A stretch of DNA of 38,806 bases from an uncultured Opitutia bacterium (GTDB lineage: Bacteria > Verrucomicrobiota > Verrucomicrobiia > Opitutales > Opitutaceae): positions 64,001 to 102,806 of the forward strand of contig CAITWF010000098.1 of the NCBI GenBank assembly GCA_903896015.1. The letters run 5' to 3'. This document shows positions 4,687-38,720 of this stretch, in pieces (the stretch's first letter is position 1; each line of letters starts with the position of its first letter). Both the position numbers and the translations under genes were made by a program. The notes below the pieces were generated by a model that did not search any database, was not told the origin of the DNA, and saw only the letters and a program-made list of their open reading frames with translations.

Positions 4687-4716
4687 CTGACTCCACGCGA
4701 GGTGCTGGGCTACAAA
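4687..4716 (+). promoter_or_regulatory. Possible sigma-70-like promoter for the giant PEP-CTERM gene
   Basis: CTGACT (4687-4692) and TACAAA (4711-4716) are separated by 18 nt, and each matches four of six consensus bases. Transcription would start near 4723, leaving a leader of about 45 nt before the ATG at 4767 and excluding the in-frame ATG at 4716 as the start. The assignment rests on pattern only. Confidence 0.3.
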
Positions 4717-4766
4717 TGGGCCTGCTTTCGCCTTGTCTCTGCCAATCGCTTGCACAAGATAACCCA

Positions 4767-7700
4767 ATGAGTTTCCGGCTTACCCTGCTCGCCGCGTGCG
4801 CGTTGGTCCTCAGTTCGCGGCTGGTGGCGCAAATAACCACCTATACTTGGACGGCCACGAACGGGAGCTTCTTCAACGCCGCCAACTGGTCCGGCGAATC
4901 AGTGCCGCCGAGCAGTGCGTCCGCCACGCAATTGTCGTTTGGTTCAACGTTGCAGCCCAATGTGACGCTCAACGCCAATTTCAACGCCAACAAGATCACA
5001 TTTTCCAGCACCGCGCAGCATTACTATGTCGGCGGAAGCGGCAGCCCCACGCTCGGCATCGGCAACGGCGGGATCGCCCTGACCGGCGGCACGAGCACCT
5101 ACGTCGATTTCTCATCGAGCCTGAATCTCAGCCTGCTCGACAGCCAAGCTTGGAACACCGCCGGCAATCTCTCGGTTTACAGCAACATTTCGGCCGCCTC
5201 CAACTATACGCTCACCAAGACAGGCGCCGGCTACCTCGCCCTCGGCGGCAGCAGCACCTATGCGGGCGGCACGACGATCAGCTCCGGCACGCTCTACCTT
5301 ACAAGTAATTCCACGAAGAGCGGCAACACGATTACATCGGGCCCGGTCGGCACCGGCAACCTCACGCTCACGAGCGGCACGACGCTGGCCAATCTCGGCT
5401 CCTCAACGATCACACTCGACAATCCGATCATTGCCAGCGGCACGGTGAACCTCGGCCAGACCACGAACAAAGCCGGCCTGATCCTCACGGGCAACATCAG
5501 CGGCGGCAATGTTACCGCTCCGACTACTCTCAACGTCGTCTCCTCCACCTCGGACGAGTCCATTTTCTACAACGTCGTGCTGCGAGGCACCAACACCTTT
5601 ACCGGCAGCATCAATGCCACCGTCGGCGGCGTGATTCTAGACAGCGCCGGCGCACTGCCCTCCGGCACCGCAATCAAACTCGGGGACGACGGCTATATCG
5701 GCTACACTGAAAATGGATTCGCTTCGTGGTCCGCGTTCCAGTCCGCCATCACCGCCAATAGAAGCAGCAGTTTCAGCGGCGATACCATCATCGGCATCGA
5801 TTCCGCCAACGCCTCCAACCCGCGCACGGTGTCAGACACGATTACGCTCTCCGGCTTCGGCTCGACCGTACCTTACCTCGGTAGCGCAACCAATGTCACG
5901 ATCAGCGGCAGCGTCGTGCTCCCCAGCAGCGGCACCCTCAAGCTCACCGGTGTGAACAGTGGCTATCTAAAAATTACGTCGCCCATCACGGCCACGAACA
6001 ACGTCACCGCCGTTACGATCGGTGCGAGTGAGAGCGAAACAGGCGACGCTTCTTACAACGGCTACGTCGAATTGGCGAGCGGCAGCAGCACTTACACAGG
6101 CAACACCACGCTTCAATCCGGCTACCTGCTGGTCGGCACCAGCAGCACCGGCACGGCCGCCAACGTGACGGGCGGCCCGATCGGCACCGGCGCGCTCTTC
6201 ATTGGCAAATCCTCCGGGGGCAGCAGTTCGGAGGACAACGGCCCCTCCACGCTGGCCGCGAGTACCAACAATCTCACGCTCCTCAATCCCATTTCAATCT
6301 CCAACAACAACACGCTGCAGGTTGGCGTGCCGGTCACATCCAACACCACCTCGCCCGCCTACCCGCTGCAGTCGTTCGCCAGCAATTCACTCACCCTCGG
6401 CGGTGTGATTTCAGGTGCTGGCGCGATCACCATTCAGAGCGGCGGCACTGTTACGCTGAGCAACAACAACACCTACAACGGCGGCACCACGATCAACTCC
6501 GGCACGCTGCAGGTTGGCGCGGGCGGCACGACCGGCTCGATCGCCGGCAACATCACGAACAACAGCTTTCTCACATTTAACGTCTCCAACCCCCTGACCG
6601 TTTCCGGCATCATCTCCGGCACCGGCATCCTGACGCAACTTGGCTCCGGCGCGCTCACGCTCGCCGGCAGCAACACCTACACCGGCCTCACCAGCATCAA
6701 GGCCGGCGGCCTGCTCGTAACGACGCTCGCCAATGGCGGCAACGCCAGCCCGATTGGCGCGTCCACCAGCGCCGCCGCAAATCTCATCATCGACGGCGGC
6801 TTCCTCCGCTATACTGGCACCGGCAACAGCACCGATCGTCTGTTCACCATCGGCGCCAACGGCAGCGCTCTCGATTCCACGGGCAGCGGTGCCATCAACT
6901 TCACCAACACCGGTGTGATCGGTCTCACCGGCTCCAACACGGCGCGCAACTTCACGCTCACCGGCACCAGCACAGCGAACAACACCCTCGCCCCGATCTT
7001 CGCGGACAACGGCACCGGCGCGACCTCCCTCGCGAAAACCGGCGCGGGCACCTGGGTGCTCGCCGGCGCTAACACCTACACGGGCGCCACCACCATCAGC
7101 GGCGGCACGCTCCGAATCGGCGTCGCCAACGCGCTCTCCAGCGCCACCGATGTCACGCTTTCGCTCGGCGGCACCACGCTCGATCTGAATGGCTTTGCCG
7201 ACACCGTCGGCTCGATCGCCGGCGTGCAAACCACGACCATCATCACCACGGGCGGCCTCGCCACCGCGGACAACAATTCTTCCACCTTCAGCGGCAATCT
7301 CACCGGCACGGGCAGCTTCACGAAAGGCGGCACGGGCACGCTCACCCTCAACGGCACCAACTCCTACACCGGCGCCACGGTCGTCTCCGGGGGAACGCTC
7401 CGCCTCGCATCCGGCGGCGTTCTCTCCAGTTCGACCGACTTGAGCCTTCCCAATTCTGGCGCGATGTTCGATGTCAACGGCTCCTCGACCACCGTCAACT
7501 CCCTCGCCGGCGTCAACGGCGCCACCGTCTCGCTCGGCACCGGCTCGCTCACAAGCGCAGGCAACAGCTCAACCACCTTCGCCGGATCGATCAACGGGGG
7601 CGGCTCGTTCACCAAGGGCGGCACGGGCACGCTCACCCTCAACGGCACGAACTCTTACACCGGCGGCACGACGATCAGCGGCGGCACACTGGCCCTCGGC

Positions 7701-10289
7701 GCGGCCGGCTCGATCGCGCCGGGCGCGGATGTCACGGTCAACTCCGGCGCCACGTTGAGCGTCGGCAACAACCAGACCACGCGGGTCATCAGTGGCACCG
7801 GCACCGTCCAGATCGCGGACAGCACCAATCTGACGATCAATCTGCCGGTCAGCGGCACCGGCAGCAGTGGCACGTTTGCGGGCGCACTGACCGGCAACGG
7901 TTCGGCGACCCTGACCGAAGCCGGCGGCGGCAATCTTACGCTGAGCGGAGCATCGCCGAACTTCAGCGGCTCGATCGTCATCAGCAGCGGCAACCTCACC
8001 GTCTCGAATGCGAATGCCCTCGGCAACACGACCGGCGGCACCACCGTGACGAGCCCGGGAACGCTGACGCTGAGCAACGTCGCCATCGGCGCGGAACCCA
8101 TCACGCTCAACAGCGCCAATGGCTCCAATGGCGGCACCCTCATCGGCACCGGCACCGCGTCCCTCTCCGGTCCGGTCACGCTCACCGCCAATTCCACGAT
8201 CGGCACGGTGCTTTCGACCGACGTGTTCACGCTTTCAGGCGTCATCAGCGGGACAAAAAACCTTCTGACGAGCGGTGGCGGCACTCTCGTGCTGACCGGC
8301 CAAAGCACCTACACCGGCTCGACGACGATCGGCAACGGCACGCTCAAAGTCGGCGCGGTCAACGCCCTGCCCGTCACCACTAACATCGGCTTCTCCGGCG
8401 TGCTCGACGTGGCGGCCAACCAGACGATCGCCGGCATCAATAACAGCTCGGGCAGTTCGCTCATCAAAATCGAAACCGGCCAGACCCTCAACATCACGCT
8501 CGGCGCCGCCGCCTCGTTCGATACGCTGTTCACCGGCACGATCGCCGACGCCACCTCCGGCGGCATTCTCGAAATCGGACCTGGCAACGGCCACGCCGTG
8601 CGGCTCTCCGGCGCCAGCAATTACACCGGCGGCACGCAGATCGATGCCGGCGGCGCCCTGATGATCGGCAACAACAACGGCACCACCGGCGCGATCGTCG
8701 GCAACGTCACCGACAATGGCACGCTGATTTTCAATCGCGGAAACGCGATGACCTTCGCCGGCACGATCACCGGCACCGGCAATGTCACGCAGGGCATCTC
8801 CGGCGCCACCACCGGCACCACCACGCTCACCGCCGCCAACACCTACGCCGGCGGCACCACGATCAACGGCGGCACGCTCGTCCTCGCGAATGCCAGCCCC
8901 AGCACTACCTCTGCCACCGGCTCGGGCGACATCTCGGTCGCCGCGGGCGCCACACTCCAAGTCGGAAACGGCGGCACCACCGGTTCGCTCTCCGGCAATG
9001 TCTCCAACTCCGGCACCGCCATCTACAACCGATCCGACAGCGCAACCTACAGCGGCATCCTCTCCGGTCCGGGCAACTTTGTGAAGCAGGGTGCTGGCAC
9101 TCTGACGCTTTCCGGTCAGAGCACCTACACCGGTAACTTCAAGATTTCGGCTGGCACACTCGTCATCGGCGCGAACAACGCCCTGCCCACCGCCAGCCAG
9201 ATCGCCCTCGCTACGGGCGCGACGCTCGAGGTGCAAAACAACCAAACGCTCGCCGGCTTCTTCGGCAACAGCGCCGGCTCCACGCTCCAGATCGATCTGA
9301 ACAAAGTCTTCACCGTCACTATTCCGACGACCAACACCCTCACGACCTTCGCTGGCGATGTCACTGGCGCCGGCACCTTCGCCGTCGGCGGCACCAACGC
9401 CAGCGCCAACAACTTCATCATCCTCAGCGGCAACGTCATCGCCCCCACCTCGAATAATTCCGGTGTCACCGGCACCACGCTCGTCAGCGGCTCCGCCCCA
9501 CTCACCCTCACCGCACCGCTCTTCCTTAGTAGCAACACCACTCAGACGATCACCAATCCCATCGGTGGCACGAGCAGTCTCAGCTTCACCGCCGGCAATA
9601 CCACTCTCACCGGTGCCAGCACCTACACCGGCGGCACGACCGTCAGCAGCGGCGGCAAACTGATCGTCAACAACACCTCCGGTTCCGCCACCGGCACCGG
9701 CACCGTCACCGTCGCCGGTGGCAGCACTATTGGCGGCAACGGCACCATCTCGGGACCACTCATCCTTGCGAGCGGCGCGACCGTCTCACCAGGCAACAGC
9801 CCCGGCACCCTTAACGCGGGCCCCACCACATTGAGTGGCGGCTCGACCTTCGCCTTCGATATCAACAGCACCTCCGGCACGGCCGGCATTAATTGGGACA
9901 TCCTCAAGGTCACCGGCGGCCTCACGATCGCCGCCACGAGCGGCAACCAATTCGTCATCGCACTGAACTCGCTCGATAACTCCAATAACTCCGCCGCCCT
10001 CTCGAATTTCGACCCGACTCAAGGGTATCACTGGGAATTTGCCAGCACCACGACCGGCATCACAATCTTAAGCGGCGGTTTTGATCCCAGCGCCTTTTCT
10101 TTCACCACCTCGTCGTTTCTCAACAACGTCAACGGTGGCGCCTTCAGCGTTTCGCTCAACGGTCCCGGTACGAGCCTCTTCCTCAATTTCACGCCCGCCG
10201 CCGTCCCCGAGCCGTCCACCTGGACGCTCCTCGTCAGCGGCCTCGGCGCCTTTGCCTTCACCGCGATCCGTCGCCGGAAGAAATTGTAA
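4767..10289 (+). CDS. Giant autotransporter-type beta-strand-repeat protein with PEP-CTERM anchor
   Basis: This encodes 1840 residues. A Sec signal peptide (MSFRLTLLAACALVLSSRLVAQ) is followed by an N-terminal segment with the YTWT...NW pattern common before such repeats. About 13 copies of the autotransporter-associated beta-strand repeat follow, with cores such as GTLTLNGTNSYTGGTTISGG, GAGTWVLAGANTYTGATTI and GTLTLSGQSTYTGNFKISAG. These probably stack as a right-handed beta helix. Near the end comes the family's VSPGNSPGTL segment. The last 28 residues are a PEP-CTERM signal: VPEPSTW, a hydrophobic helix, then RRRKKL. No autotransporter beta-barrel is present, so surface display should depend on an exosortase rather than type V secretion. 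The composition is dominated by Gly, Thr, Ser and Asn. The start at 4767 follows from the signal peptide. A surface or matrix structural or adhesive role is inference. Confidence 0.92.
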   Translation: MSFRLTLLAACALVLSSRLVAQITTYTWTATNGSFFNAANWSGESVPPSSASATQLSFGSTLQPNVTLNANFNANKITFSSTAQHYYVGGSGSPTLGIGNGGIALTGGTSTYVDFSSSLNLSLLDSQAWNTAGNLSVYSNISAASNYTLTKTGAGYLALGGSSTYAGGTTISSGTLYLTSNSTKSGNTITSGPVGTGNLTLTSGTTLANLGSSTITLDNPIIASGTVNLGQTTNKAGLILTGNISGGNVTAPTTLNVVSSTSDESIFYNVVLRGTNTFTGSINATVGGVILDSAGALPSGTAIKLGDDGYIGYTENGFASWSAFQSAITANRSSSFSGDTIIGIDSANASNPRTVSDTITLSGFGSTVPYLGSATNVTISGSVVLPSSGTLKLTGVNSGYLKITSPITATNNVTAVTIGASESETGDASYNGYVELASGSSTYTGNTTLQSGYLLVGTSSTGTAANVTGGPIGTGALFIGKSSGGSSSEDNGPSTLAASTNNLTLLNPISISNNNTLQVGVPVTSNTTSPAYPLQSFASNSLTLGGVISGAGAITIQSGGTVTLSNNNTYNGGTTINSGTLQVGAGGTTGSIAGNITNNSFLTFNVSNPLTVSGIISGTGILTQLGSGALTLAGSNTYTGLTSIKAGGLLVTTLANGGNASPIGASTSAAANLIIDGGFLRYTGTGNSTDRLFTIGANGSALDSTGSGAINFTNTGVIGLTGSNTARNFTLTGTSTANNTLAPIFADNGTGATSLAKTGAGTWVLAGANTYTGATTISGGTLRIGVANALSSATDVTLSLGGTTLDLNGFADTVGSIAGVQTTTIITTGGLATADNNSSTFSGNLTGTGSFTKGGTGTLTLNGTNSYTGATVVSGGTLRLASGGVLSSSTDLSLPNSGAMFDVNGSSTTVNSLAGVNGATVSLGTGSLTSAGNSSTTFAGSINGGGSFTKGGTGTLTLNGTNSYTGGTTISGGTLALGAAGSIAPGADVTVNSGATLSVGNNQTTRVISGTGTVQIADSTNLTINLPVSGTGSSGTFAGALTGNGSATLTEAGGGNLTLSGASPNFSGSIVISSGNLTVSNANALGNTTGGTTVTSPGTLTLSNVAIGAEPITLNSANGSNGGTLIGTGTASLSGPVTLTANSTIGTVLSTDVFTLSGVISGTKNLLTSGGGTLVLTGQSTYTGSTTIGNGTLKVGAVNALPVTTNIGFSGVLDVAANQTIAGINNSSGSSLIKIETGQTLNITLGAAASFDTLFTGTIADATSGGILEIGPGNGHAVRLSGASNYTGGTQIDAGGALMIGNNNGTTGAIVGNVTDNGTLIFNRGNAMTFAGTITGTGNVTQGISGATTGTTTLTAANTYAGGTTINGGTLVLANASPSTTSATGSGDISVAAGATLQVGNGGTTGSLSGNVSNSGTAIYNRSDSATYSGILSGPGNFVKQGAGTLTLSGQSTYTGNFKISAGTLVIGANNALPTASQIALATGATLEVQNNQTLAGFFGNSAGSTLQIDLNKVFTVTIPTTNTLTTFAGDVTGAGTFAVGGTNASANNFIILSGNVIAPTSNNSGVTGTTLVSGSAPLTLTAPLFLSSNTTQTITNPIGGTSSLSFTAGNTTLTGASTYTGGTTVSSGGKLIVNNTSGSATGTGTVTVAGGSTIGGNGTISGPLILASGATVSPGNSPGTLNAGPTTLSGGSTFAFDINSTSGTAGINWDILKVTGGLTIAATSGNQFVIALNSLDNSNNSAALSNFDPTQGYHWEFASTTTGITILSGGFDPSAFSFTTSSFLNNVNGGAFSVSLNGPGTSLFLNFTPAAVPEPSTWTLLVSGLGAFAFTAIRRRKKL
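7317..7379 (+). repeat. Intragenic direct repeat, copy 1
   Basis: This 63-nt segment differs at five positions from the segment at 7608-7670, including a perfect run of about 30 identical bases. The offset is 291 nt, or 97 codons, so the copies are in frame and encode the same FTKGGTGTLTLNGTNSYTG core. Most other repeats in the gene are similar only at protein level, so this pair looks like a recent duplication or gene conversion. Confidence 0.9.
7608..7670 (+). repeat. Intragenic direct repeat, copy 2
   Basis: Partner of the segment at 7317-7379. Recombination between the two would remove or add exactly 97 codons without a frameshift. Confidence 0.9.
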
Positions 10290-10310
10290 GGCGTCAGTCT
10301 TGCTGACGCC
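10290..10310. terminator. Hairpin between convergent genes, possible bidirectional terminator
   Basis: GGCGTCAG and CTGACGCC form a perfect 8-bp stem around a TCTTG loop. It starts one base after the stop of the giant PEP-CTERM gene and ends a few bases before the stop of the convergent SDR gene. There is no strong T run on the plus side; on the minus side the tail is moderately T-rich (TTACAATTTCTT). Termination is likely by position, not proven by a U tract. Confidence 0.55.
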
Positions 10311-10316
10311 GCGCTT

Positions 10317-11090
10317 TCACCGCAGGGCAATCACGCCGCCATCGATATCGTAGGCCGAGCCCGTGATAAAACCGGCCTCCTCCGAACAGAGAAACGCCAC
10401 CAGGGCCGCGACCTCGCGCGGCTCGCCCATCCGCCCGATTGGCTGCGCTGCGGAAAGTTTCGCAAACATTTCCTTCTCCTGTCCCGGATAATTCTTCGCG
10501 AGATAGCCATCGACGAACGGCGTGTGCACGCGCGCCGGACACACACAGTTGCAGCAAATCTTCTTGTCCACGAAATCACGCGCGACCGACAGCGTCATCG
10601 AAAAAACCGCGCCCTTGCTCATCGCATAGGCAAACCGATCCGGCACCGCCACCTTCGAGAGCGTCGAGGCGATGTTCACGATCGCTCCGCCGCCCGCCGC
10701 CAGCAGCTTCGGCACGCCAAAGTGCAGTCCGTGGTAAACCCCGCGCACGTTCACCGCATAAACCCGATCGAGTTCCTCGGGCGTGGTCTTCAGCACGTCA
10801 CCCACGCTCGCGATCCCCGCGTTGTTCACGAGCACATCGAGCGCGGCGACCTGGGCGAACGCCGCCCTCATCGACTCCGTGCTCGCCACGTCGGCAGCAA
10901 GCACGTGCGCCACCCCACCCGATCGGCGAATCGCCGCCGCCGTCTCGGCGCCGGCCTCCGCACGCAGTTCCAAAATCTCCACCTCCGCCCCCTCCGCCGC
11001 CAGCCGCTCCGCGATCGCCCGCCCGATGCCCGAGCCCGCACCGGTGACGAGCGCGCGTTTGCCCGTGAAACGTCTGGCTTCCGAAGTCAT
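10317..11090 (-). CDS. Short-chain dehydrogenase/reductase (SDR), last gene of hexarate operon
   Basis: A 257-residue classical SDR. Seen: TGAGSGIG at residues 16-23, NNAG at 89-92, and the catalytic triad Ser142, Tyr155 and Lys159 (YAMSK). An acidic residue, Glu41, ends the second beta strand, which favours NAD(H) over NADP(H). The C-terminal [13 protein letters not shown] and [12 protein letters not shown] segments are typical of SDRs acting on sugars and sugar acids, but substrate cannot be assigned. Its ATG overlaps the stop of the upstream DUF4450-like gene in ATGA (11087-11090), so translation is probably coupled. In this operon it could act on a sugar released upstream of the glucarate steps; that is inference. 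Known uronate dehydrogenases are also SDR proteins but I cannot match this one to them by eye. Confidence 0.9.
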
Positions 11091-14000
11091 CGCACCAGCG
11101 TCACCGCCATCAGCCCGATGACAACATCGTTTGCCAGCGCCCGCACCGTAAGCGACTTCAGCTCCTTCTTCGGATCGAGCGGCAACTCCAGCACTGTCGC
11201 CGCCCCGCCCGGAATTTTTCCGCCCTTGCCCTTGAACGTCTCGCGGTGAAGCACCCGCACGCTGCCCGTCTTCAAGTCCACGCGGATCGGTAGCGACCCG
11301 TCGTAGCGAAACTGAAAATCATCGATGAAATAATCCTGCTCGATCGGCCACCAGCTCGTCGGATTGTACAGGGCGAGCCGTTCCGTCGTTCCATCCGCGT
11401 AGGTCGCGATCACCTCGCCATCGTCGATCCGGCTCTGCATCGGATTCGTCGATCCCGCCATCAACAACACCGCCCGCGCGGCCCACCCGCTCAGCGGCAC
11501 CGTCGACTCGCGCGGATAATTGTCCCACTGCGAGACGAACAACACATTCTTCGCGTCGCGTTCGCCCGGCGTCGCCAGCACGACGCCGCTCGGCAGCAAA
11601 ATCGTTCCGCCCGCTTTCGCCGCGACCGCCCGCAATCCGCTGTCATCGATCTCCGCCATCGTGTTCACGCCGCCCGCCCATCCGCCAAGGCCCTGTTTCG
11701 GCAGCGCCAACGAAACGAACGGCGACCGCGGGGCCCGATACTCGTTCTTGAAAATCTGCGTCACGCGATCGTTGAAATGCATAGTCAAATCGATCGGATC
11801 GGATTTCTCGGCGAATGGGTCGGCCGCCGTCGACGGTATCTTATTTTCTGATTTTATCTCTGGTGCCGCCACCCAGCGCATCTGTCCTTGCTGTACGCTC
11901 GCGAACTTCGCTGACACCACCATCCGCATCGCATCGCCCGCCCACACCACCACGACGTCGTGCGCCGCCGCCGCCATCGCCAGCACATCGATCCGCGGAG
12001 CGCCCACGGAATTTTCAATCACGTGCCACGGCGCCGGTTGACCATCGACCAACACCGATGTCACCCGCTCCCGCCGCGCCACCAAGCGCAGCCGCAGCGC
12101 CATCGGCTTCGCGAAATTTTGCTTCACCGCATAAGTGTCCGTCTCGGCGTCCCGCTTGAACTCCACCGCCACATCCGGGTGCCGCAGCGCCGCGTGCGAC
12201 CACTCCTCCGGCCAGCCCGGCTCGAACCGCAGCTCGCCGCCCAGCGCATCGGGCCGCACGCCGAACAATCCCTCGACTAGCGCCCGCGACAGCACGCCCG
12301 ATCCGTCGCCGAAATCGCGCTGCGACTCACGCCGGTAAACATCGAGGTAACTCATCGAGCCAACGTTGCCCGGCGATATCCCCATGAACATCGCCGCGAG
12401 CAGCGATCCTTTCGCGATGCGCCACGCCTCATCCGCGCGCCCCGCCTGCCAGAACCCGAGCGCCGCGTGCACTGCCTCGGCCATCACGACATTGTTGATC
12501 GACCAGTCGTAGGGCATCCAGTTGCTCTCCGCCAACGTGAAGAGCCCTTCCGGCATGCCCGGTCCGCGCACCGGCAGATGCGGAATCTGCGCGTCGACCT
12601 GCTGCGTCATCGTCCACGCCTCCTGTGGCGTCGGCACCTCCGAATCGATCGTGTGATAAAACGTCCAGAGCGCAGCGCTCGGGTGCACGCGCTGCGCGCC
12701 GAGCCAATCCTTGCTCTCCGCAAACCATCCGCCGCGGCCGGCTTCAATCCACAGCAGCGTGCGCATCGCCCGCTCGATCGCCGTGGCCTCGGTCTCGTAG
12801 GGCTTCGCATCCAATCTAAGCAACCGCGCCAGTCGCGCCGCCTCGCGGTTGTGAAAATAATTGTAGGCGCTCGCGTGCGCGGTGCCGCCGCCGGAATACT
12901 GCAAATCGTCGCTCGCCCAAATCGCCCCGTAGGCTTCGTAGAGTGGCAGTTTCTCGCCGTTGACGACAAACTCGCGCCGAAACAGCCGCCGCTCCCAAGC
13001 GAGATGCCGTTCGATGACCGGCCACATTTTTTTCGCGAACTCCACATCGCCCGTCCACCGCAGGTGCCGGAACAGCGCGTCGATCGCCACGAGGTTCATG
13101 TCGTAATGCGAATTCGACATATCTCCGTTCGAGTGCAGCCCGGCCTCGTTGCGCGCGAGGTTGTCCTTCTCGCTCGCCGGCGGAATTTTTTCCGGGATCG
13201 GCGCCACGTTTTGCCGGCCCGCCCAATATTCGAAATGGCTCCGCGCGCGATCGTGCCAGCCGAGGGCGTCGAGCGAGTAGGGCCCGCGCCACCCAAGCAG
13301 CCGCGTGCGCCACGCGATCGCGCCGTGCATGATGTCACGCTGCGGTTCATCCCACACCGCGTCAGCTGCAACGTTCAGCGCGCCGACCGCGGCGTTGAGA
13401 AACGCGTCAGGCGTGTCGACGCTCACCCGCGCGCGCAGTTCGGAAAAATACTTTTCCGCCTCGGCGAATCGCGCAGGAAGCTGCACCGCAGAATACGCCG
13501 GCGCCAGCACGGCCGCCTTCGCCGGCTGCGGAGCGCCGACTTCGCGATACGTGGCGAGATCTTCGGTAGGCGCCGCATTCGCCGCGATGCGCTGCAACGA
13601 AACGAACAGCGGCTGGCCGCTGTTGAGCGGCGCTCGACCCACCACGACCGAATCCTTCGGCGCGAAAGGATACTCCGCTGCCAACAACGTGGTTGGATCC
13701 GACCACTGCGCCGCATCGCTCACCCTCAGCTTTGCACCCGCCGGCATCACGCCGACGATCGTCGCGGCCTTCGCCGTGAGCGTGAAACGCCCTTCCCCGA
13801 TCGCGAACACGTTGTCGCGGCAAAATTCCGGCTTGAGCTGAAACCACTCGCTGATCGGCACGCGCTCGGTGCCGATGTCGCCGTCGCGCGCGCCGCGCTG
13901 GCCGTTCACGCCACCGTAAGCCCAGATCAATTCCACGCCCGCAGAGATGTTTTCTCCTTCCGCCCGCACGATCAGCCCCTCGGTCTGATGCAAGGCGATC

Positions 14001-14416
14001 CCCGTCACGCGCAGCACACCCTCCCCGCCGAGCAGCGGGTCGCGGATTTCGTAGACTAGCTCGCCCGGCCGGTAGCGCGTGGTTATTTTCGCCGCAGCCT
14101 GCAGCCATTTCGCGCCCACGGCGCTGCGCACGCCGAACCGTAGATTTCCGCCACGTCCCGGCAGATAGAGCACGAACTCCGGCTTGTCGCCGCCGTCGAC
14201 GCGAAAGGCTGTATTACCGCCGTAGAGCGGCCGGTTGAAAAACTCCGCCCCGTTCTCGATTACGAAGTCCGCACCGTCCGGCCGGTAGCGCAGCGGCCGA
14301 TCGATGTTGGTTTCGAGATTCGGCGTGAGACGCTGCGCACCGAGCGTCTGCGCGCGGGCTATCGTCATTGCGCACAGCAAAACAATCACCGCGGACCGGA
14401 TAACTCGAAAGGGCAT
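11087..14416 (-). CDS. Secreted DUF4450-like protein with six-hairpin glycosidase-like domain
   Basis: This encodes 1109 residues. A signal peptide (about residues 1-22, ending ARA before QTLG) implies export. The N-terminal domain has [17 protein letters not shown] and [20 protein letters not shown] (about 40-80), a pattern I associate with DUF4450. From about 335 to 800 the sequence looks like an alpha/alpha toroid of the six-hairpin glycosidase kind: [19 protein letters not shown], then [33 protein letters not shown] and [12 protein letters not shown]. The last 250 residues are beta-rich. It lies 64 nt after gudD and overlaps the SDR start, so it belongs to the glucarate operon. The inferred role is releasing a sugar or uronic acid from an oligosaccharide or polysaccharide in the periplasm or outside the cell. 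No enzyme activity is asserted; the family name is from memory of its motifs. Confidence 0.75.
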
Positions 14417-14480
14417 TGCCGGAAAAATCGACTGCCGACCGGTTTTTTTCGAGCCGCGAATCGTCGGACCGTCACGCTCC

Positions 14481-15764
14481 TCACCACCGTGTCTGCGCGA
14501 ATTTCCACCCTGGCACTTTCTTCTGCATCTCGATCTCGTCGTTGCGCTCGGTCAGGCCGGCACGCTTGAAGTTGGCGTGGGCCTTGGCGAGTGCGGCGCG
14601 ATCGAGTTCGACGCCGAGGCCGGGTTTGTCCGGCAGCACGACGCAGCCCTTTTCAAATTTCACGCGGCCGCCGATGATGATTTCCTCCCACTGCCACGGA
14701 TAATGCGTGTCGAGCGCATAGGTAAGGTTGGGCATTGCGGCGCCGAGGTGCGTCATCGCGATCAGAGAAATGCCGCCGTGGTTGTTAGAGTGCATCGAAA
14801 CGCCGCGACCGAAGACGCGGCAATGCGCCGCCAGCTCCATTGACGCGTGCAGCCCGCCCCAAAAATGGTGATCCGTGAGAATGATGTCTTCTGACCCCGT
14901 GCGCGCGCTGCCGGGCAGATCGTCAAACGACGTCGTGCACATGTTGGTCGCGAGCGGCGTTTTCAGCGCCTTCCGCACCGTCGCCATGCCTTCCTGTGTG
15001 CGGCAGGGATCTTCAAAATATTCGACCACGCCCTCGAGTTCGCGGCCCCATTTGATCGAAGTCTCGACGGTCCAGAGCGCGTTGGGATCGAGGCGCAGCG
15101 GATAGCCGGGAAACGCTTTTTGCAGCGCTTTCATCGCGGCGACTTCCTGGTCGGGTGGAAAACAGCCACCCTTCAACTTGATGGATTCAAAGCCGAACTC
15201 CGCGATCATGGCGCGCGCCTGCGCCACGACGCCGTCGGGATCGAGTGCCGCCGCCTGCCGTGCCGCGTCCCAACCCGTCGCCGACGGATCGGTGCCGAAC
15301 GCGAGGTCGCCGCCCGCGCCTTCGTATTTATAGAAGAGGTAGGCGGAATACGGCACGCGATCGCGGACGATGCCGCCGAGGAGCGTGGCCACGGGAACGC
15401 CGAATTTCTTCCCCGCGAGATCGAGGCACGCGACATCGAGCGCGCTCTCCACCTGCACCAGCGCGCGTTGGTCCCACGGTTTGTCACCGCGCGCCGCCGA
15501 GGCCTCGGTGCCAAAATGCGCCCGCAACGCGGCGCGCAGCGGATGCCAGTTCAACGGATCTCGCCCGATCGCGATCCATCGCGCGGCCTCGAGCTTCGCG
15601 TTGATCGCGGCGCTGCCGGGCACCTCGGCGAGACCCGTGAGCCCATTGTCGGTCACGAGTTCGACAACCGTGCGCAGGCACCACGGGGCGTGCAGGCCGG
15701 CCGCGTTGAGCAACGGTGGATCGCCGAGCACGATCGGCGTGACGTGCATTTCGACGATACGCAT
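14481..15764 (-). CDS. gudD: Glucarate dehydratase (enolase superfamily)
   Basis: A 427-residue enolase-superfamily dehydratase converting D-glucarate (and often L-idarate) to 5-keto-4-deoxy-D-glucarate in the cytoplasm. Family residues are visible: the general-base pair Lys196/Lys198 in SIKLKGG, metal ligands Asp226 (RLDPNALW), Glu251 (YFEDP) and Asn274 (LATNMC), Asp298 (ILTDHHFWGG), and the catalytic His325 with His329 in SMHSNNHGGIS. These match the arrangement known from E. coli GudD. It starts 9 nt after the garL stop and is followed by the DUF4450-like gene. The product is the substrate of the preceding aldolase gene, so the function is well supported by both motifs and context. Confidence 0.95.
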   Translation of the reverse strand: MRIVEMHVTPIVLGDPPLLNAAGLHAPWCLRTVVELVTDNGLTGLAEVPGSAAINAKLEAARWIAIGRDPLNWHPLRAALRAHFGTEASAARGDKPWDQRALVQVESALDVACLDLAGKKFGVPVATLLGGIVRDRVPYSAYLFYKYEGAGGDLAFGTDPSATGWDAARQAAALDPDGVVAQARAMIAEFGFESIKLKGGCFPPDQEVAAMKALQKAFPGYPLRLDPNALWTVETSIKWGRELEGVVEYFEDPCRTQEGMATVRKALKTPLATNMCTTSFDDLPGSARTGSEDIILTDHHFWGGLHASMELAAHCRVFGRGVSMHSNNHGGISLIAMTHLGAAMPNLTYALDTHYPWQWEEIIIGGRVKFEKGCVVLPDKPGLGVELDRAALAKAHANFKRAGLTERNDEIEMQKKVPGWKFAQTRW

Positions 15765-15773
15765 CGCCGAAAA

Positions 15774-16541
15774 TTATTTCGCTTTGAGCGTTGCCACGAA
15801 ACCCATCAGCGCCGAGCGCACGCCGCCGCCGTCACTGCCGAGCGCCACGAACGTGTAGCCGAGGTCGCGGACTTTCGGGACGAGCTTGTCGTTGTGCACG
15901 AGAATGCCGGCAGCCTTGCCGTGTTTCTTCGCGGCGTCGCTTACCTTCTTGAGCGTCTCGGTGAACTGCGGGCTCTCCAGTTGATCGCGAATGCCCATGT
16001 TGTAGCTGAGATCGGTCGGGCCCACGAAAAGCACATCGGCGCCGTCAACCGCCGCAATCGCGTCGATGTTCGCGACGGCCTCGGGCGTTTCGATTTGGAC
16101 GACAGTGAGCAGGCGCTCGTGGCCGTGGAGATAGTATTCCTCAAAGTCGCCACCGAAGCCCGCGCCGCGGTTGAACTTCGCGACACCGCGCACGCCGTGC
16201 GGCGGATAACGCACGGATGCGACCGCCAGCTTCGCCTCGGCCGCCGTGCTCACGTAGGGTGCCATCACGCCGAAGGCGCCCATATCGAGCGCGCGTTTGA
16301 AGCGCGGCGTCTCGTTGGCCGCGATGCGCACAACAGGGAATGAGGGCGTTGCCGCCGCCGCGTGGAGTTGGTGCAGCAGCGTGTCCTCGCCGCCCGGGCC
16401 GTGCTCGTGATCGATTAGCAGCCAGTCGAAGCCGGCAAGTCCGGCGATCTCGACGGTGAGCGGCGAGCCGAGATTAAGGAACGTGCCAACGAGCCATTCG
16501 CGGGCGAGCACGCGTTTGCGGAAATCAGGCGGAAGTTTCAT
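15774..16541 (-). CDS. garL: 2-dehydro-3-deoxyglucarate aldolase (HpcH/HpaI family)
   Basis: A 255-residue class II aldolase of the HpcH/HpaI family. It would cleave 5-keto-4-deoxyglucarate or 2-keto-3-deoxyglucarate to pyruvate and tartronate semialdehyde. Seen: the catalytic His47 in IDHEHGP, substrate Arg72 (VVRIAA), metal ligand Glu151 in VVQIETPEA, and Asp177 in VGPTDLS, the usual second metal ligand. Family members also act on 4-hydroxy-2-ketoheptanedioate or ketorhamnonate, but the adjacent gudD and garR genes fix the likely substrate. It begins 9 nt after the garR stop, so the genes form one transcript. Confidence 0.92.
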   Translation of the reverse strand: MKLPPDFRKRVLAREWLVGTFLNLGSPLTVEIAGLAGFDWLLIDHEHGPGGEDTLLHQLHAAAATPSFPVVRIAANETPRFKRALDMGAFGVMAPYVSTAAEAKLAVASVRYPPHGVRGVAKFNRGAGFGGDFEEYYLHGHERLLTVVQIETPEAVANIDAIAAVDGADVLFVGPTDLSYNMGIRDQLESPQFTETLKKVSDAAKKHGKAAGILVHNDKLVPKVRDLGYTFVALGSDGGGVRSALMGFVATLKAK

Positions 16542-16550
16542 GGGAGATTT

Positions 16551-17426
16551 TTAGAGCGATGTGTAGAGACGGTAGAGCGCCTGCGTGCCGCAGTCTTCCC
16601 AAGCGCGCGCGGCGACCTGGTCGTAGAGTTTCTTCGCGCAGGCGAGGCCCGGCAGATCGAGCTTCATCTCGGCGGCGCTTTCGAGCGCGATGCGCATGTC
16701 TTTCAGGATGTGCTTCACGTAGAAACCCGGGGCGTAATTTTCAGCAAGCGCGCGCGGCGCGAGATTCGTCATCGCCCAGCTGCCCGCCGCACCCCCGCTG
16801 ATGCTTGCGTGCACCGCCGCCGGATCGAGGCCGGCTTTCTTCGCATAAGCGAGCGCTTCGCACCACGAGACCATGCCGACGGCAACGGCGATCTGGTTCG
16901 CCATCTTGCAATACTGGCCCGCGCCCGCCGCGCCGAGGAGCGCAATGTTCTTGCCCAAGATTTCGAAGAGCGGCTTCGCGCGCGCAAACGCCGCTGCATC
17001 GCCGCCGACCATAATCACGAGGCGGGCTTCCTTCGCCCCAAGATCGCCGCCGGACACAGGCGCATCGAGCGACGCGAGGCCGCGTTTCGCGGCTGCGTCG
17101 AAAATTTTTCGCGCGAGCACCGGGCTCGAGGTCGTCATGTCGATCAGCAACGCGCCAGGCTTGGCACGTTCGACGATGCCGCCCGCGCCGAGGTAGCTCG
17201 TCTCCACGTCGGTCGGAAATCCGAGCATCGTAATCACCACGTCGGAGGGCGCGGCTGCCGCGCCGGCAGAGTCGTGCCACGTAGCGCCGGCTTCGAGGAG
17301 CGCGGCGGCTTTTTCCTTGGTTCGGTTATAGACGTGCAGCGCGTGGCCTGCCTTCTGGAGGTGGCCCGCCATGCTGCGGCCCATGACGCCGGTGCCGATG
17401 AATGCGATCGAGAGCGTAGCGGACAT
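16551..17426 (-). CDS. garR: 2-hydroxy-3-oxopropionate (tartronate semialdehyde) reductase
   Basis: A 291-residue beta-hydroxyacid dehydrogenase that would reduce tartronate semialdehyde to D-glycerate. Seen: the nucleotide-binding FIGTGVMGRSMA (residues 9-20), a YNRT after the second strand (favouring NADPH, by inference), the substrate motif DAPVSGGDLGAKE at 121-133, and the catalytic Lys174 with Asn177 in CKMANQ. The start at 17426 was preferred over an in-frame start 38 codons upstream because the longer version adds an Arg-rich tail before the Rossmann strand and would read through the inverted repeat. It is the first gene of the operon and faces a divergent GntP-type permease. Confidence 0.93.
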   Translation of the reverse strand: MSATLSIAFIGTGVMGRSMAGHLQKAGHALHVYNRTKEKAAALLEAGATWHDSAGAAAAPSDVVITMLGFPTDVETSYLGAGGIVERAKPGALLIDMTTSSPVLARKIFDAAAKRGLASLDAPVSGGDLGAKEARLVIMVGGDAAAFARAKPLFEILGKNIALLGAAGAGQYCKMANQIAVAVGMVSWCEALAYAKKAGLDPAAVHASISGGAAGSWAMTNLAPRALAENYAPGFYVKHILKDMRIALESAAEMKLDLPGLACAKKLYDQVAARAWEDCGTQALYRLYTSL

Positions 17427-17469
17427 GATTGGAAACGAATGAGGGATAATCGAAAACCGCCCGCGATGC

Positions 17470-17519
17470 AAAAGCAAAGCGCGGCGCGCGCGAACCAAAT
17501 CGAGCCGCGCTTTGCTTTT
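17470..17519. promoter_or_regulatory. Perfect 16-bp inverted repeat between garR operon and gntP-type gene
   Basis: AAAAGCAAAGCGCGGC (17470-17485) is repeated as its exact reverse complement GCCGCGCTTTGCTTTT (17504-17519), with an 18-nt spacer. It lies centrally in the 171-nt region between two divergent starts. It could be a dimeric operator controlling both transcripts, or a hairpin with an A tract before and a U tract after a GC core, resembling a bidirectional terminator or attenuator. No regulator gene is adjacent. Confidence 0.8.
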
Positions 17520-17597
17520 ATCGTTACGCAGCGTCCTCACATGCGGTGCGATCCGCGATTGCCTTCTTTCGAGTCAAAGGCAGCGTCGGCGAACCCC

Positions 17598-19031
17598 ATG
17601 AGTCCCCTGCCCATTGCCTTCATCGGCGGCCCGCTCGGCATCGTCGCGTTCAGCATTCTGTTTGTCGTTTTTGTGATCACCGTGCTGCGGCTGCACGCAT
17701 TCTTCGCGCTCATCCTCGCGGCGGCGGTCGTGAGTTTGCTCACGGCGACCACGCAGACGGGTGATGGGCGCTATGTGAAAGCGATCGAGGCCGTCATGAC
17801 AGAGTTCGGCTCGACCGCCGGCAAACTCGGCTTCGCGATCGCGCTCGCGGCGGTGATCGGCGCGTGCCTCATGGAGAGCGGCGCGGCCGACAAAATTGTC
17901 CGCCGCATGATCGCCGTGCTCGGCGAGGGCCGCGCAGCGCTCGCGGTGTGCCTCACGGGCTTCGTGCTCGCGGCACCGGTTTTTGCGGACACGGTTTTCA
18001 TGCTGATGCTGCCGCTCGCGCGCTCGCTCGCTCGCCGCACCGGCAAGGACTACATTCTCTACGTGTGCGCGATGGGCGCGGGCGTCGTCGTCACCAACGG
18101 CATCGTGCCGCCCGCACCGGGCCCGATGTTTGTCGCCGACAAACTTGGCATCACGATGGGCCATGCGATTCTCACGGGCATCGCGTTCGGCTTGCTGCCC
18201 GCGCTCGCCGGCCTCGCGACCGCCCGCTGGGTCAACCGCCGCTGGCCCGCGCCGCCGCGCCCGCTCGAAGGCGAGACGGCGGAGTCACTCACCGCACAGG
18301 CTGCGAAACCTGAGTCGGAGCTGCCCGGCTTTCTGCCGTCGATCGCGCCCGTCGTGCTCCCGCTGATTTTAATCGCGGCCGCCGCGACGCTCGACGCAAT
18401 CCTCAAACATGCGACCGCCGCGACGCGCGCGAACGTTTCGCCAACACTCGTCCAAGTCGTCCAGTTTCTCGGCAACAAAAACATCGCGCTCCTCCTTGGC
18501 GCCCTCGTCGCCCTGGCCGTCAACGCCCGCCAGAAAGCCATTTCGTGGAAACAGGTTGGCGCCCGACTTGGCAAACCCGTCGAGATGGCTGGCGTGATGA
18601 TTCTCATCGTATCGGCTGGCGGCGCGTTCGGCGGGATGATTCAAAGCGCCGGCATTGGCGAACAGGTCCGCGCCCTCGCCGGTGGCCACGCCCTCAACTA
18701 CGTGCTGCTCGCGTGGCTCGTCACGATCATCATCCGCGGCGCGCAGGGCTCCGCCACAGTCGCAACGATCGCCGGCGCCGGCGTGATGATGTCGATCGCG
18801 GGCACCGCCGGCTTCGGCGTGCACCCGCTCTATATTTTTCTCGCGATCGGCTTCGGCTCGAAGGGCCTGCTTTGGATGAACGACGCCGGCTTCTGGATCG
18901 TCTCGCGCATGAGCGGACTCACCCAGGGCGAAATGTTGAAAAGCTGGTCCGTCGTGATCAGTCTGATCTCGCTTTACGGCCTGATCGAAGTCTTGGTCGT
19001 ATCAGCCCTCTGGCCGCAACTGCCATTCTGA
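17598..19031 (+). CDS. GntP-family gluconate/hexarate:H+ symporter
   Basis: A 477-residue inner-membrane transporter with about 12 hydrophobic segments and a hydrophilic loop near residues 215-245. Family hallmarks are visible: FADTVFMLMLPLARSLARRTGKD, the re-entrant-loop-like TNGIVPPAPGPMF, RGAQGSATVATIAGAG and GSKGLLWMNDAGFW. GntP proteins carry gluconate and related sugar acids with protons. Its divergent placement next to glucarate genes suggests it takes up glucarate, galactarate or a related acid, which is inference. The start at 17598 gives the normal N terminus; the same frame is open far upstream but crosses garR on the other strand and is not coding there. The next gene follows after 22 nt with no terminator. 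Confidence 0.92.
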   Translation: MSPLPIAFIGGPLGIVAFSILFVVFVITVLRLHAFFALILAAAVVSLLTATTQTGDGRYVKAIEAVMTEFGSTAGKLGFAIALAAVIGACLMESGAADKIVRRMIAVLGEGRAALAVCLTGFVLAAPVFADTVFMLMLPLARSLARRTGKDYILYVCAMGAGVVVTNGIVPPAPGPMFVADKLGITMGHAILTGIAFGLLPALAGLATARWVNRRWPAPPRPLEGETAESLTAQAAKPESELPGFLPSIAPVVLPLILIAAAATLDAILKHATAATRANVSPTLVQVVQFLGNKNIALLLGALVALAVNARQKAISWKQVGARLGKPVEMAGVMILIVSAGGAFGGMIQSAGIGEQVRALAGGHALNYVLLAWLVTIIIRGAQGSATVATIAGAGVMMSIAGTAGFGVHPLYIFLAIGFGSKGLLWMNDAGFWIVSRMSGLTQGEMLKSWSVVISLISLYGLIEVLVVSALWPQLPF

Positions 19032-19053
19032 TCCTCCTTTTTTCTTAGCCACC

Positions 19054-19878
19054 ATGAATCGTCGCGAAGTCCTCACCACCTCGCTCGCCGCCTCCGCGGC
19101 CGCGACTCTCGCCCACTCGCAGCTTGCCGCCGCGGAAAAATCCCCCGGCGTGCGGGAGTATTATGAGCTGCGGGCTTACCGGCTGAAACCCGGCGCGTCC
19201 TCAGCGCTGCTCGAAGGATATTTGGAGATGGCCTTTATCCCGGCGCTCAATCAGCGCGGCGTGAAAAACGTCGGCGTGTTTACAGAACTCGAAGTCGATA
19301 AGAAGGCCGGCACCTCGAAGCCGCTCGCCGGCTCGCCGTTCTGGGTGCTCGTGCCGCACGGATCCCTCGAATCGTTCGTGAGCGTCAGCGCGGATCTCAA
19401 CACCGATGCCGCCGTGCAGGCCGCAGGCGCAGATTACCTCGGCGTCGCGAAAGCCAGCCCCGCCTTCGATCGGATCGACACGTGGCTTTATCGCGCCTTC
19501 GCCAGTCAGCCGCAAATGGAGCTGCCCGCGTTCAGCAAGAGCCGAGTGCCGACGCGCGTCTTCGAAATGCGTGACTACGAGAGCCACAGCGAGCGCGCCG
19601 CCCTAAGCAAGATGGCGATGTTCAACCACGGCGAGATTCCGCTCATGAAGGAACTAGGCATGTCGCCGTTGCTCTTCAGCCAGGGCATCGCCGGCCCGAA
19701 TCTTCCTCATCTGCGCTATTTCACCAGCGGCTCCGATCTCGCGGCGCACCTCGCCGGCTGGGCGAAGTTCGGCCCCGACCCGCGCTGGAAGGCGATGTCG
19801 ACCGACCCGCAATACAAGGACAACACGTCGAAGAACACGGCGCGTTTTCTCACACCGACGGCCTACTCGCAGATCTGA
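19054..19878 (+). CDS. NIPSNAP-like protein with Tat-type signal
   Basis: A 274-residue protein beginning MNRREVLTTSLAASAA, a twin-arginine-type signal with an AAA-rich end near residue 27. Two similar ferredoxin-like halves follow: one starting YYELRAYRLKPG and one starting RVFEMRDYESHSERAA. This arrangement is typical of two-domain NIPSNAP proteins, which resemble small monooxygenase-like dimers of undefined function. It follows the permease by 22 nt, so it may be co-transcribed with it. The protein is probably exported folded to the periplasm. Biochemical role unknown. Confidence 0.85.
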   Translation: MNRREVLTTSLAASAAATLAHSQLAAAEKSPGVREYYELRAYRLKPGASSALLEGYLEMAFIPALNQRGVKNVGVFTELEVDKKAGTSKPLAGSPFWVLVPHGSLESFVSVSADLNTDAAVQAAGADYLGVAKASPAFDRIDTWLYRAFASQPQMELPAFSKSRVPTRVFEMRDYESHSERAALSKMAMFNHGEIPLMKELGMSPLLFSQGIAGPNLPHLRYFTSGSDLAAHLAGWAKFGPDPRWKAMSTDPQYKDNTSKNTARFLTPTAYSQI

Positions 19879-38500: not shown

Positions 38501-38602
38501 GGGGCGCGCGACGGTTTGCGAGTGCGCCGCAGAGGCGAGCGCCAAGCCGCCGAACACAATGAGAGCACGGCGGATGGCAGGGAGCATGGGTTTGGTAGTC
38601 AT
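35576..38602 (-). CDS. TonB-dependent outer-membrane receptor
   Basis: A 1008-residue receptor. A signal peptide (PAIRRALIVFGGLALASAAHS) is followed by an ETVALSAFEVLAD segment common before the plug in Opitutaceae receptors. The plug domain ends with VEVINGPQSLLYGVGGAGGVINVVSK. A long beta-barrel with alternating aromatic strands ends in a terminal Phe (YVWSSTISF), the outer-membrane insertion signature. The ligand cannot be read from sequence; siderophore, cobalamin or oligosaccharide uptake are all possible. No TonB, SusD or transporter gene is adjacent. I chose the ATG at 38602, which precedes the signal peptide closely; one 20 codons upstream is less likely. The upstream leader has two strong hairpins. 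Confidence 0.93.
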   Translation of the reverse strand: MTTKPMLPAIRRALIVFGGLALASAAHSQTVARPASPPPEETVALSAFEVLADSDKSYGALNSNSITRFNTELDRMPVSADIFNEAFMKDVGAVSVEDMITAFSAGAGSALASPSTSSTSTQPGDRNANSFLALRGLTAPTMERDGFMPVNTYIQSGATGTGFSSNFDIERVEVINGPQSLLYGVGGAGGVINVVSKQARFNQKPFGSFQFQVNQYGQKLGLFDFGWSNEKVAVRLAATDQYAQGGRRIYLGGPMNGLYLQLAFKLPHKTLLRWSGETSEYNRIAGTGNQAFTALSAANDIRNGQRLRYLLATNQLQAAASGGASGAGYIGNGKINWDNVDSYASWWNTNEYTKNKFTSLTADTKWNSWLTTQLALGYRTTFDSRVGNTITFAAPNVATNPTGTWAIGQTGGMPVSDLAQPVRQKTIRFSALATNDFFDGKVHSQSIIGADFVRTDGAVITYDYVKADANFNPITTNTAIGTGYSYTGPLWYSVADGPQRRPLWEPRVANRVTYNGQNYVRVMTNPPQKNLISPSNPEGLFPGGLSALGDYRVGETINKGIYGANYTNWLDGKLDVLFGLRAGDSYSLQATEAAPPSLGSVNSSLDTKSLSFNAGVDYAIRPWLRAYASVSDSYDPPAIYVAGPLGDYPVSAHGVGQEVGLKITNATKTLSGSIAVYHAKSKNEESSLTSTLLFDINPSGLNGLYNAPSVWLNLDRKAQGVQVALTAAPTNNWRMRLSAAKTDGTVDSTRTFPQLYNDQFYANAAGQVTYKDGTVVYVNSAGANVPVASTATGAIPLTITKMSTSGDAYYANPQAVTGAISRTSRAGVILLGAADPAIAIHGPILTGATGLPISKIQINPGFTPPGTIVTNIAGEKSTGYPTYSFVFTNNYTFSEGFAKGISIGGTVSLGWQYRQYYYYPNGLSDPNNAPRSLYMWPTQTRFDGVIGYSRRIGKRYGFRTQLNIANMFNRYHVLVLPSPTAGYGPSAILDATFDQQPRTYVWSSTISF

Positions 38603-38720
38603 GACAGGGGGATCGAGGGGAACCACGCGCAGGTCGGCGCGCAGAGCAGAGACGAGAAGCAACTAAACCTAAAGACGGCGGTTGAGCGGGACAAGAAATG
38701 CCGGATGTGATTGGCTGCCG

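Follow-up and report, generated by a model that had tools for sequence, protein, structure and literature searches.

The gene considered here encodes a protein with a domain of unassigned function (DUF4450) and lies, in an uncultured Opitutia bacterium of the Opitutaceae, within an operon for hexarate-type catabolism (garR-garL-gudD-DUF4450-SDR, the last gene encoding a short-chain dehydrogenase/reductase); the whole stretch of contig CAITWF010000098.1 that was analysed, 38,806 nt long, is called the window below. We propose, with a probability of roughly 0.6, that the DUF4450 protein is a secreted glycoside hydrolase of the pectin rhamnogalacturonan I (RG-I), probably one that releases L-rhamnose, and that it was captured by the hexarate operon. 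Its catalytic function, sugar, active-site residues and induction, and the functions of the operon's other enzymes, are what we infer from features that were read directly, i.e., the gene order and its recurrence, operons without DUF4450, the genomic association with pectin genes and a fold prediction. Neither the Pfam name of DUF4450 nor the annotation of five plasmid records (in each, “DUF4450 domain-containing protein”) assigns a function, and the words DUF4450 and PF14614 were not found in the PMC literature searched; the comparison gives the family a putative substrate class, a predicted fold and candidate catalytic residues.

An earlier note on this DNA had taken the linkage to suggest a glycan-derived hexuronate or hexarate substrate and to offer a way of assigning DUF4450. 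The locus does help with assignment, although the informative partners proved to be pectin genes, with gudD (the glucarate dehydratase-like gene) linked in only 4 of the 21 DUF4450-positive genomes of the family. As for the substrate, the link to plant polysaccharide stands through those pectin genes, whereas a hexarate drawn from a glycan is not needed to explain the linkage, because UxaC gives the genome an isomerase route for uronates.

Association of DUF4450 with Pectin Genes

The general partners of DUF4450 are rhamnogalacturonan and pectin genes, not gudD. Among 61 genomes of the window's family, 21 carry the close DUF4450 type (five genomes with the distant type only and two marginal ones, G023 and G041, were scored negative). 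At least five matches to glycoside hydrolase (GH) family 28, counted as matches and not as genes, occur in 20 of these 21 versus 7 of the 40 others (Fisher p 3e-9), and a homologue of a second protein, c1_707, in 19 of 21 versus 5 of 40 (p 2e-9). Close gudD homologues (>=56% identity; present in 12 of the 95 genomes of the comparison set) do not co-occur with DUF4450 (5/21 vs. 6/40, p 0.49); all three tests ignore kinship between genomes. The survey of DUF4450–gudD co-occurrence that the earlier note had called for thus came out negative, and gudD linkage is ruled out as a general clue to DUF4450.

The best 80 of at least 537 confirmed DUF4450 matches in named genomes span Verrucomicrobiota, relatives of Massilia and Duganella, Asticcacaulis, Caulobacter, Sphingomonas, Hymenobacter, Flavobacterium, Chitinophaga, Bacteroides, and others—at least four phyla, by record names. 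Their recurrent neighbours, typed with Pfam through one representative per cluster, are GH28, polysaccharide lyase (PL) family 11, GDSL esterases (of the RGAE kind, by eye), GH2, GH43, GH88/105, GH106, GH115, pectic acid lyase, PcRGLX (PL26 kind), GH78, RhaM, RhaT, and RhaAD, an aldolase/SDR fusion whose NCBIfam name is rhamnulose-1-phosphate aldolase/dehydrogenase. After removal of 3 loci without a called DUF4450 gene and 13 with less than 10 kb of flank, 64 loci were counted: 42 bear a GH28, PL11, GH105, GH106, GH78, PL10 or PL26 label within 10 kb, and 47 do so with a wide set that also takes in the GDSL esterases and a cluster judged lyase-like by eye, whose representative lacks a Pfam match, against 0 of 17 controls in both cases. 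The strict count is 41/60 once those of the 80 loci (at least five) that are the same contigs as relatives in the comparison set are dropped, and c1_707 lies within 39 of the 64. The controls comprise eight loci of the distant DUF4450 type and nine with gudD but no DUF4450 (L173 was left out); one of them, L054, bears the RhaAD label, but RhaAD does not count as a pectin marker. The marker hidden Markov models were built from clusters recurring in the DUF4450 loci themselves, which favours detection there, and the controls were scanned with the identical models; genes outside the window were called with a simple codon model, not a standard gene finder. Public annotation of plasmid-borne loci shows similar company: two GH28, GH115, GH2 and pectate lyase on Asticcacaulis excentricus pASTEX01, a pectate lyase in the record of the Asticcacaulis AND118 plasmid, and GH28 with a TonB receptor on Granulicella pACIX902.

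The window genome itself (4.96 Mb in 123 contigs) looks like that of a pectin degrader by content, with 14 GH28 matches, a c1_707 homologue on another contig (C87), UxaC, and a stretch in which RhaM is accompanied by genes for a transporter and an esterase-like protein. Pectin-degradation genes are also reported for Opitutaceae strain MRC-7 (PMC12613999).

Several counts weigh against a pectin role. Fifteen of the 64 named loci have neither a wide-set marker nor c1_707, of the 20 further loci read in the window's family (some with short flanks) no more than 5 show a pectin marker, and none lies within 10 kb of the window's own DUF4450 gene. No SusC/SusD pair or pectin enzyme was found within that distance either, so that the locus is not a polysaccharide utilisation locus by this definition; a TonB-type receptor is encoded at 35576-38662. 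On balance we regard it as very likely that the DUF4450 protein is a pectin or RG-I glycosidase.

In most members of the distant DUF4450 type (L052-L059; about 30% identity) no signal-peptide-like start is visible by eye and no pectin marker is near; in L052 and L054 the gene lies in an operon with dehydrogenase-E1-like and acyltransferase-like genes, again by eye.

Predicted Fold and Candidate Residues

PF14614 matches residues 85-278 of the window protein at 135.6 bits (gathering cut-off 27). An AlphaFold2 model built with 30 sequences (pLDDT 84.3, pTM 0.88) predicts a beta-sandwich containing PF14614, an (alpha/alpha)6 barrel at about residues 310-720, a beta domain at about 740-850, and a C-terminal beta domain at about 870-1109, the last with conserved motifs common to the aligned homologues, without a Pfam match and barely probed by the fold search. 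Together with an N-terminus that is signal-peptide-like by eye, the model supports the earlier description of a secreted, glycosidase-like protein, and membership in an (alpha/alpha)6 glycosidase class is well supported by the prediction.

Within that class, the ranking of solved structures by VIA-align is suggestive of an alpha-L-rhamnosidase. The nine top rows are all alpha-L-rhamnosidases (Z 28.1-23.7 over 394-433 residues; rank 1 with rmsd 2.9 over 431), and other (alpha/alpha)6 families follow as a mixed group from Z 23.2 down. The closest folds are 8iwf (Z 28.1 over 431 residues), 8hmm (Z 27.8 over 433) and 3w5n (Z 26.4 over 413), which are Aspergillus niger Rha-2, A. oryzae RhaA and a Streptomyces avermitilis enzyme; the GH78 label stands in one title and presumably applies to the rest. 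The DUF4450 protein differs from GH78 enzymes in its low identity (12-14%), its further C-terminal domain, and its lack of a match at E 0.001 to the GH78 6-hairpin model (PF17389), on which a true GH78 neighbour scores 331.9 bits. Profile alignment by hhalign gives the lead a weak further point in its favour, a match to two GH78 sequences (E 2e-4, probability 46%). Two observations speak against it: Foldseek ranks GH94 phosphorylases first (E 1e-19); and the GH78 catalytic general-acid Glu, which sits in a DCPxRER-type motif, is not visible by eye, where an LGWRG stretch (residues 374-378) offers no acid. A PDB sequence search with the DUF4450 protein gave nothing credible, and a viral structure search no useful match.

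An alignment of 101 homologues shows D503 and D704 without exception, in 93/93 close and 8/8 distant sequences, and D701 in 99% of the close and 8/8 of the distant ones. By barrel position, with GH94, GH37 and GH78 enzymes as models, D503 is a candidate acid and D701 or D704 a candidate base of an inverting enzyme.

The partner protein c1_707 (about 710 aa; L133:13580-15703 and 43 other copies, in the window genome L179:4662-6800) has no Pfam match (one copy searched) or NCBIfam match (two copies). Its predicted structure (pLDDT 89.7) likewise combines an (alpha/alpha)6 barrel with a beta-sandwich and comes closest to GH65 (Z 34.8), followed by GH95 and GH139; enzymes with these folds are known to cleave alpha-1,2 linkages. 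Treating DUF4450 and c1_707 as one family was rejected (hhalign probability 0.4%). A speculative and rather unlikely scheme is that the two are new inverting GH families that alternately dismantle the RG-I backbone, with DUF4450 removing L-rhamnose from galacturonate and c1_707 galacturonate from rhamnose; if true, the pair would explain RG-I loci that have neither GH106 nor GH78.

Rhamnose or Fucose

Rhamnose-type genes occur in 15 of the 64 loci (9 with RhaT or RhaAD, 6 with RhaM alone), and 14 of these 15 have no GH106 or GH78 label within 10 kb. GH28, GH105 and GH2 are not rhamnose-releasing families, which would leave this step to DUF4450 or c1_707 there, unless the enzyme is encoded elsewhere. 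DUF4450 may be the source of rhamnose that pectin loci with neither GH106 nor GH78 otherwise lack. The cleanest cases are two Hymenobacter loci (L106 and L109), which combine RhaAD, RhaT, SusC, SusD, DUF4450, c1_707, GH28 and GH105. The RhaAD label was restricted to proteins of at least 600 aa; as a general rhamnose marker RhaAD was discarded because its SDR half cross-matched the window SDR.

Other data complicate the choice of sugar. The 15 loci are mostly from Flavobacterium and Hymenobacter and so represent few independent cases, and RhaM-family proteins may also serve fucose. In Sphingomonas UBA978 (L080), where GH106 is also present, fucP (365.3 bits, cut-off 280.4) overlaps DUF4450 by 4 nt and is accompanied by an L-fucose dehydrogenase (414.5 bits, cut-off 300) and an L-fuconate dehydratase homologue. 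In Granulicella pACIX902 (L191), DUF4450 lies in or beside an operon for the oxidative L-fucose pathway, which consists of L-fucose dehydrogenase, lactonase, fuconate dehydratase, a second SDR and an FAH-family hydrolase. We put L-rhamnose as the product at slightly short of even odds. In the mechanism we envisage, the DUF4450 enzyme would be an inverting one that removes a terminal 6-deoxy-L-sugar, more likely L-rhamnose than L-fucose, and the aspartates above are its candidate acid and base.

The Hexarate Operon and its Probable History

The operon and its flanks comprise the following features.

10317-11090, minus strand: SDR oxidoreductase, 257 aa (open reading frame, ORF, with Pfam and NCBIfam matches)
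11087-14416, minus strand: DUF4450 protein, 1109 aa (ORF with Pfam PF14614 match)
14481-15764, minus strand: GudD-like enolase-superfamily dehydratase, 427 aa (Pfam, NCBIfam and PDB sequence matches)
15774-16541, minus strand: GarL-like HpcH/HpaI-family aldolase, 255 aa (Pfam, NCBIfam and PDB sequence matches)
16551-17426, minus strand: GarR-like tartronate semialdehyde reductase, 291 aa, the operon's first gene (NCBIfam and PDB matches)
17427-17597, no strand: divergent garR-gntP intergenic region, 171 nt, presumed promoter region (gene coordinates)
17598-19031, plus strand: GntP-family permease, 477 aa (Pfam and NCBIfam matches)
19054-19878, plus strand: NIPSNAP-domain protein (Pfam; beside the hexarate module in G001, G054, G031 and G026)

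The ORFs and the Pfam and NCBIfam matches bear out the layout described earlier, with gaps in transcription order of 9, 9, 64 and -4 nt and an opposed GntP permease; garR is 291 aa from its ATG, and its longest ORF extends to 17540 from a GTG. As the earlier note had also said, neither a glycerate kinase nor a convincing transcription regulator is nearby, judging from a Pfam scan that covered 19 of the window's 24 called genes (the TPR protein encoded at 33574-35490 also matches BTAD, weakly and beneath its TPR matches). Consensus scans found no sigma-70-like promoter in 10200-19100, garR-gntP region included, where shuffled sequences lead one to expect 0.9, and nothing terminator-like in the 64 nt between gudD and DUF4450; this decides neither for nor against a single transcript.

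The linkage recurs in relatives, which had been set as its test, though narrowly. DUF4450 directly follows gudD in four genomes (the window's, G001, G024 and G043); the whole garR-garL-gudD-DUF4450-SDR order is found again in G001 and G024, where it is conserved with the window at 74-78% protein identity, and gudD-DUF4450-SDR in G043. The gudD-DUF4450 gap is 64 nt in the window, 60 in G001, 62 in G024 and 16 in G043; a 127-nt gap in the last was rejected in favour of an in-frame upstream ATG with a signal-peptide-like start. The 4-nt DUF4450-SDR overlap is shared by the window and G001. This recurrence makes the gene order more than chance. It is also lineage-specific: the 4 of 21 become 5 if G007 is counted, in which garR-garL precede DUF4450 and gudD and SDR are lacking.

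Operons without a DUF4450 match show what the arrangement may have been before. The order garR-garL-gudD-SDR is found in G026, in G054 (with an opposite-strand 150-aa ORF between gudD and SDR) and in G031 (with two extra ORFs between garL and gudD), such that SDR is the next same-strand gene after gudD in all three. G038 has garR-garL-gudD without SDR, G083 retains homologues of both garR and garL, G048 one of garL, and in G018 and G033 gudD stands alone in the stretch read, the DUF4450 matches of G018 being on other contigs. In a tree built from 23 DUF4450 proteins, a single change accounts for the four linked ones (two if G007 counts as linked); as a group they have weak support (40), and the window, G001 and G024 group together at 96. 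The simplest history is that the DUF4450 gene was inserted between gudD and SDR, and insertion rather than loss is the probable direction because SDR follows gudD in three genomes without DUF4450. One Opitutaceae lineage would then have taken the gene into its hexarate operon, and the linkage would reflect joint expression on decaying plant material, not a chain in which a glycan yields the hexarate. Single-lineage operon partners can mislead: the hexarate link alone would have indicated another substrate.

The core of this operon is, we are confident, of hexarate type, by kinship and context, in line with what had been proposed for it. The GudD-like protein scores 324.8 bits against the D-glucarate dehydratase equivalog TIGR03247 (curated cut-off 828.7), its best model by more than 220 bits; among PDB sequences its best match is 3vc5 (412 bits), with glucarate dehydratase 1ec7 at 267 bits. 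Active-site motifs of the glucarate dehydratase group are KxK, DPN, EDP and HxN, and the stretches IKLKGG, LDPNA, EDP, TNMC, DHH and SMHSN of the GudD-like protein align with 3vc5 and 3vdg, two entries that the analysis does not itself show to be glucarate dehydratases. The GarL-like protein (NCBIfam 213.7 bits, cut-off 406.75) best matches 1dxe, the 2-dehydro-3-deoxy-galactarate aldolase GarL of E. coli (189.5 bits; YfaU 144), and the GarR-like protein and the permease score 257.5 bits on TIGR01505 (cut-off 340.75) and 263.5 on TIGR00791 (cut-off 292.75). It tells against these names that no hexarate enzyme attains its curated cut-off, so that they denote closest kin only; they are backed by context, since a 43%-identical GudD homologue adjoins a GntP-type permease in two other families of the same order (L177, L178) and garR-garL-gudD adjoins UxaC in G038. 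A rhamnonate pathway was considered and rejected, as the dehydratase scores 24.6 bits for rhamnonate dehydratase against its 324.8 for glucarate, and is unlike the Granulicella fuconate dehydratase. In the route so assembled, GntP would import glucarate or galactarate, the GudD-like enzyme would dehydrate the hexarate to 2-keto-3-deoxy-hexarate, the GarL-like aldolase would cleave this to pyruvate and tartronate semialdehyde, and the GarR-like enzyme would reduce the latter to glycerate. A literature search combining glucarate dehydratase, pectin and Verrucomicrobia returned no paper.

The SDR belongs with the hexarate module, as no other same-strand gene separates it from gudD in the three operons without DUF4450, and it would be an older member of the operon than DUF4450. 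It is a classical SDR (PF13561). In the fucose-type cluster of Granulicella it is closer to the second SDR (55% identity) than to the L-fucose dehydrogenase (31%), a function that was accordingly rejected for it. SDR homologues occur in 18 of the 95 genomes at E 1e-75, 7 of them beside gudD or gudD-DUF4450; of the other 11 loci (51-62% identity), an FAH-family hydrolase adjoins in 5 and an L-fucose dehydrogenase homologue in 3 of those 5. The window SDR is therefore probably, judging by its kin, a 2-keto-3-deoxy-sugar-acid dehydrogenase that joined the hexarate operon, and it is not likely a uronate dehydrogenase (Udh), because its homologues lie in L-fucose-type oxidative operons. The earlier note had likewise recognised no such enzyme nearby; neither the 25 NCBIfam models listed of 224 nor the 24 PDB matches at E 1e-35 include a Udh, although no search started from a Udh query. 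The likeness to the oxidative L-fucose pathway ends with this gene: the window SDR is not beside an L-fucose dehydrogenase, FAH hydrolase or lactonase, the pathway's other steps are absent from the window, and a search of the window genome at E 1e-60 finds no homologue of L-fuconate dehydratase. A PDB sequence search with the Granulicella second SDR gave no match at E 1e-45.

Four Opitutales loci (L222, L225, L229 and L230) hold fucose-type clusters with SDR and FAH, three of them also with L-fucose dehydrogenase; in all four an altronate-dehydratase-like protein seems, by eye, to replace the enolase-type fuconate dehydratase.

Alternative Explanations

Two alternatives keep the DUF4450 protein a pectin enzyme and change its sugar. 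It could be an exo-alpha-L-fucosidase (or act on L-galactose) of pectin side chains or rhamnogalacturonan II, feeding the oxidative L-fucose route, as the overlap with fucP in Sphingomonas, the Granulicella operon and the kinship of the window SDR to the SDRs of L-fucose-type operons would suggest; yet the fucose context is clear in those two loci only, set against 15 with rhamnose-type genes (9 with RhaT or RhaAD), the closest folds are rhamnosidases, and the window genome lacks the fuconate dehydratase homologue, so that we consider it improbable. Much the same holds for the converse assignment, in which c1_707 is the rhamnosidase and DUF4450 some other hydrolase specific to RG-I, such as an exo-alpha-galacturonidase: the genomic association is identical and both models are (alpha/alpha)6 barrels with a beta-sandwich, but it is c1_707 that resembles GH65, GH95 and GH139, and DUF4450 that resembles rhamnosidases, which leaves this reading a poor prospect.

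The remaining two concern the operon. In the chain set out by the earlier note, DUF4450 frees a uronate or hexarate from a glycan, and SDR and GudD process the product in one pathway. Galacturonate makes up half of the RG-I backbone, and the genes share an operon in four genomes, with garR-garL beside DUF4450 in G007 as well. Bacteria can oxidise galacturonate to galactarate and glucuronate to glucarate (PMC6353982). Against this stand the absence of co-occurrence between close gudD and DUF4450, the operons without DUF4450, the nature of the SDR (classical, with no uronate dehydrogenase model among its best matches) and the presence of UxaC, and we hold such a chain to be doubtful at best. Mere adjacency, with DUF4450 landed in the operon by rearrangement under its own promoter and regulation, would fit the 60-64 nt gap before the gene in the window, G001 and G024 and the single change on the tree; it is unlikely, if somewhat less so, given that the order is kept in these genomes at 74-78% identity, that DUF4450 overlaps SDR by 4 nt in two of them, and that 16 nt separate gudD from the in-frame ATG in G043. 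An RG-I hydrolase captured by a hexarate operon thus remains the reading we prefer.

Comparison with Known Systems and Neighbouring Genes

RG-I utilisation loci (GH28, PL11, GH105, GH106, acetylesterases) include clusters with DUF4450 homologues in Bacteroidota, alpha- and betaproteobacteria, Acidobacteriota and Verrucomicrobiota, and the window copy differs from these in lying in a hexarate-type operon instead. The operon in turn resembles the gar/gud gene set of E. coli in its glucarate dehydratase-, GarL- and GarR-like enzymes, and differs in the GntP-type permease, the added SDR, NIPSNAP and DUF4450 genes, and the lack of a kinase among the genes scanned.

The NIPSNAP protein has a twin-arginine-like N-terminus, by eye, and of the four other genomes that keep its gene with the hexarate module, two have no GntP gene in the stretch read. 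Further along, 30133-33564 encodes a 1143-aa protein with zero Pfam matches at E 0.0001. Convergent with the operon, 4716-10289 encodes a 1857-aa PATR/autotransporter-repeat protein with a PEP-CTERM end, and long proteins like it occupy the corresponding place in G001 and G024.

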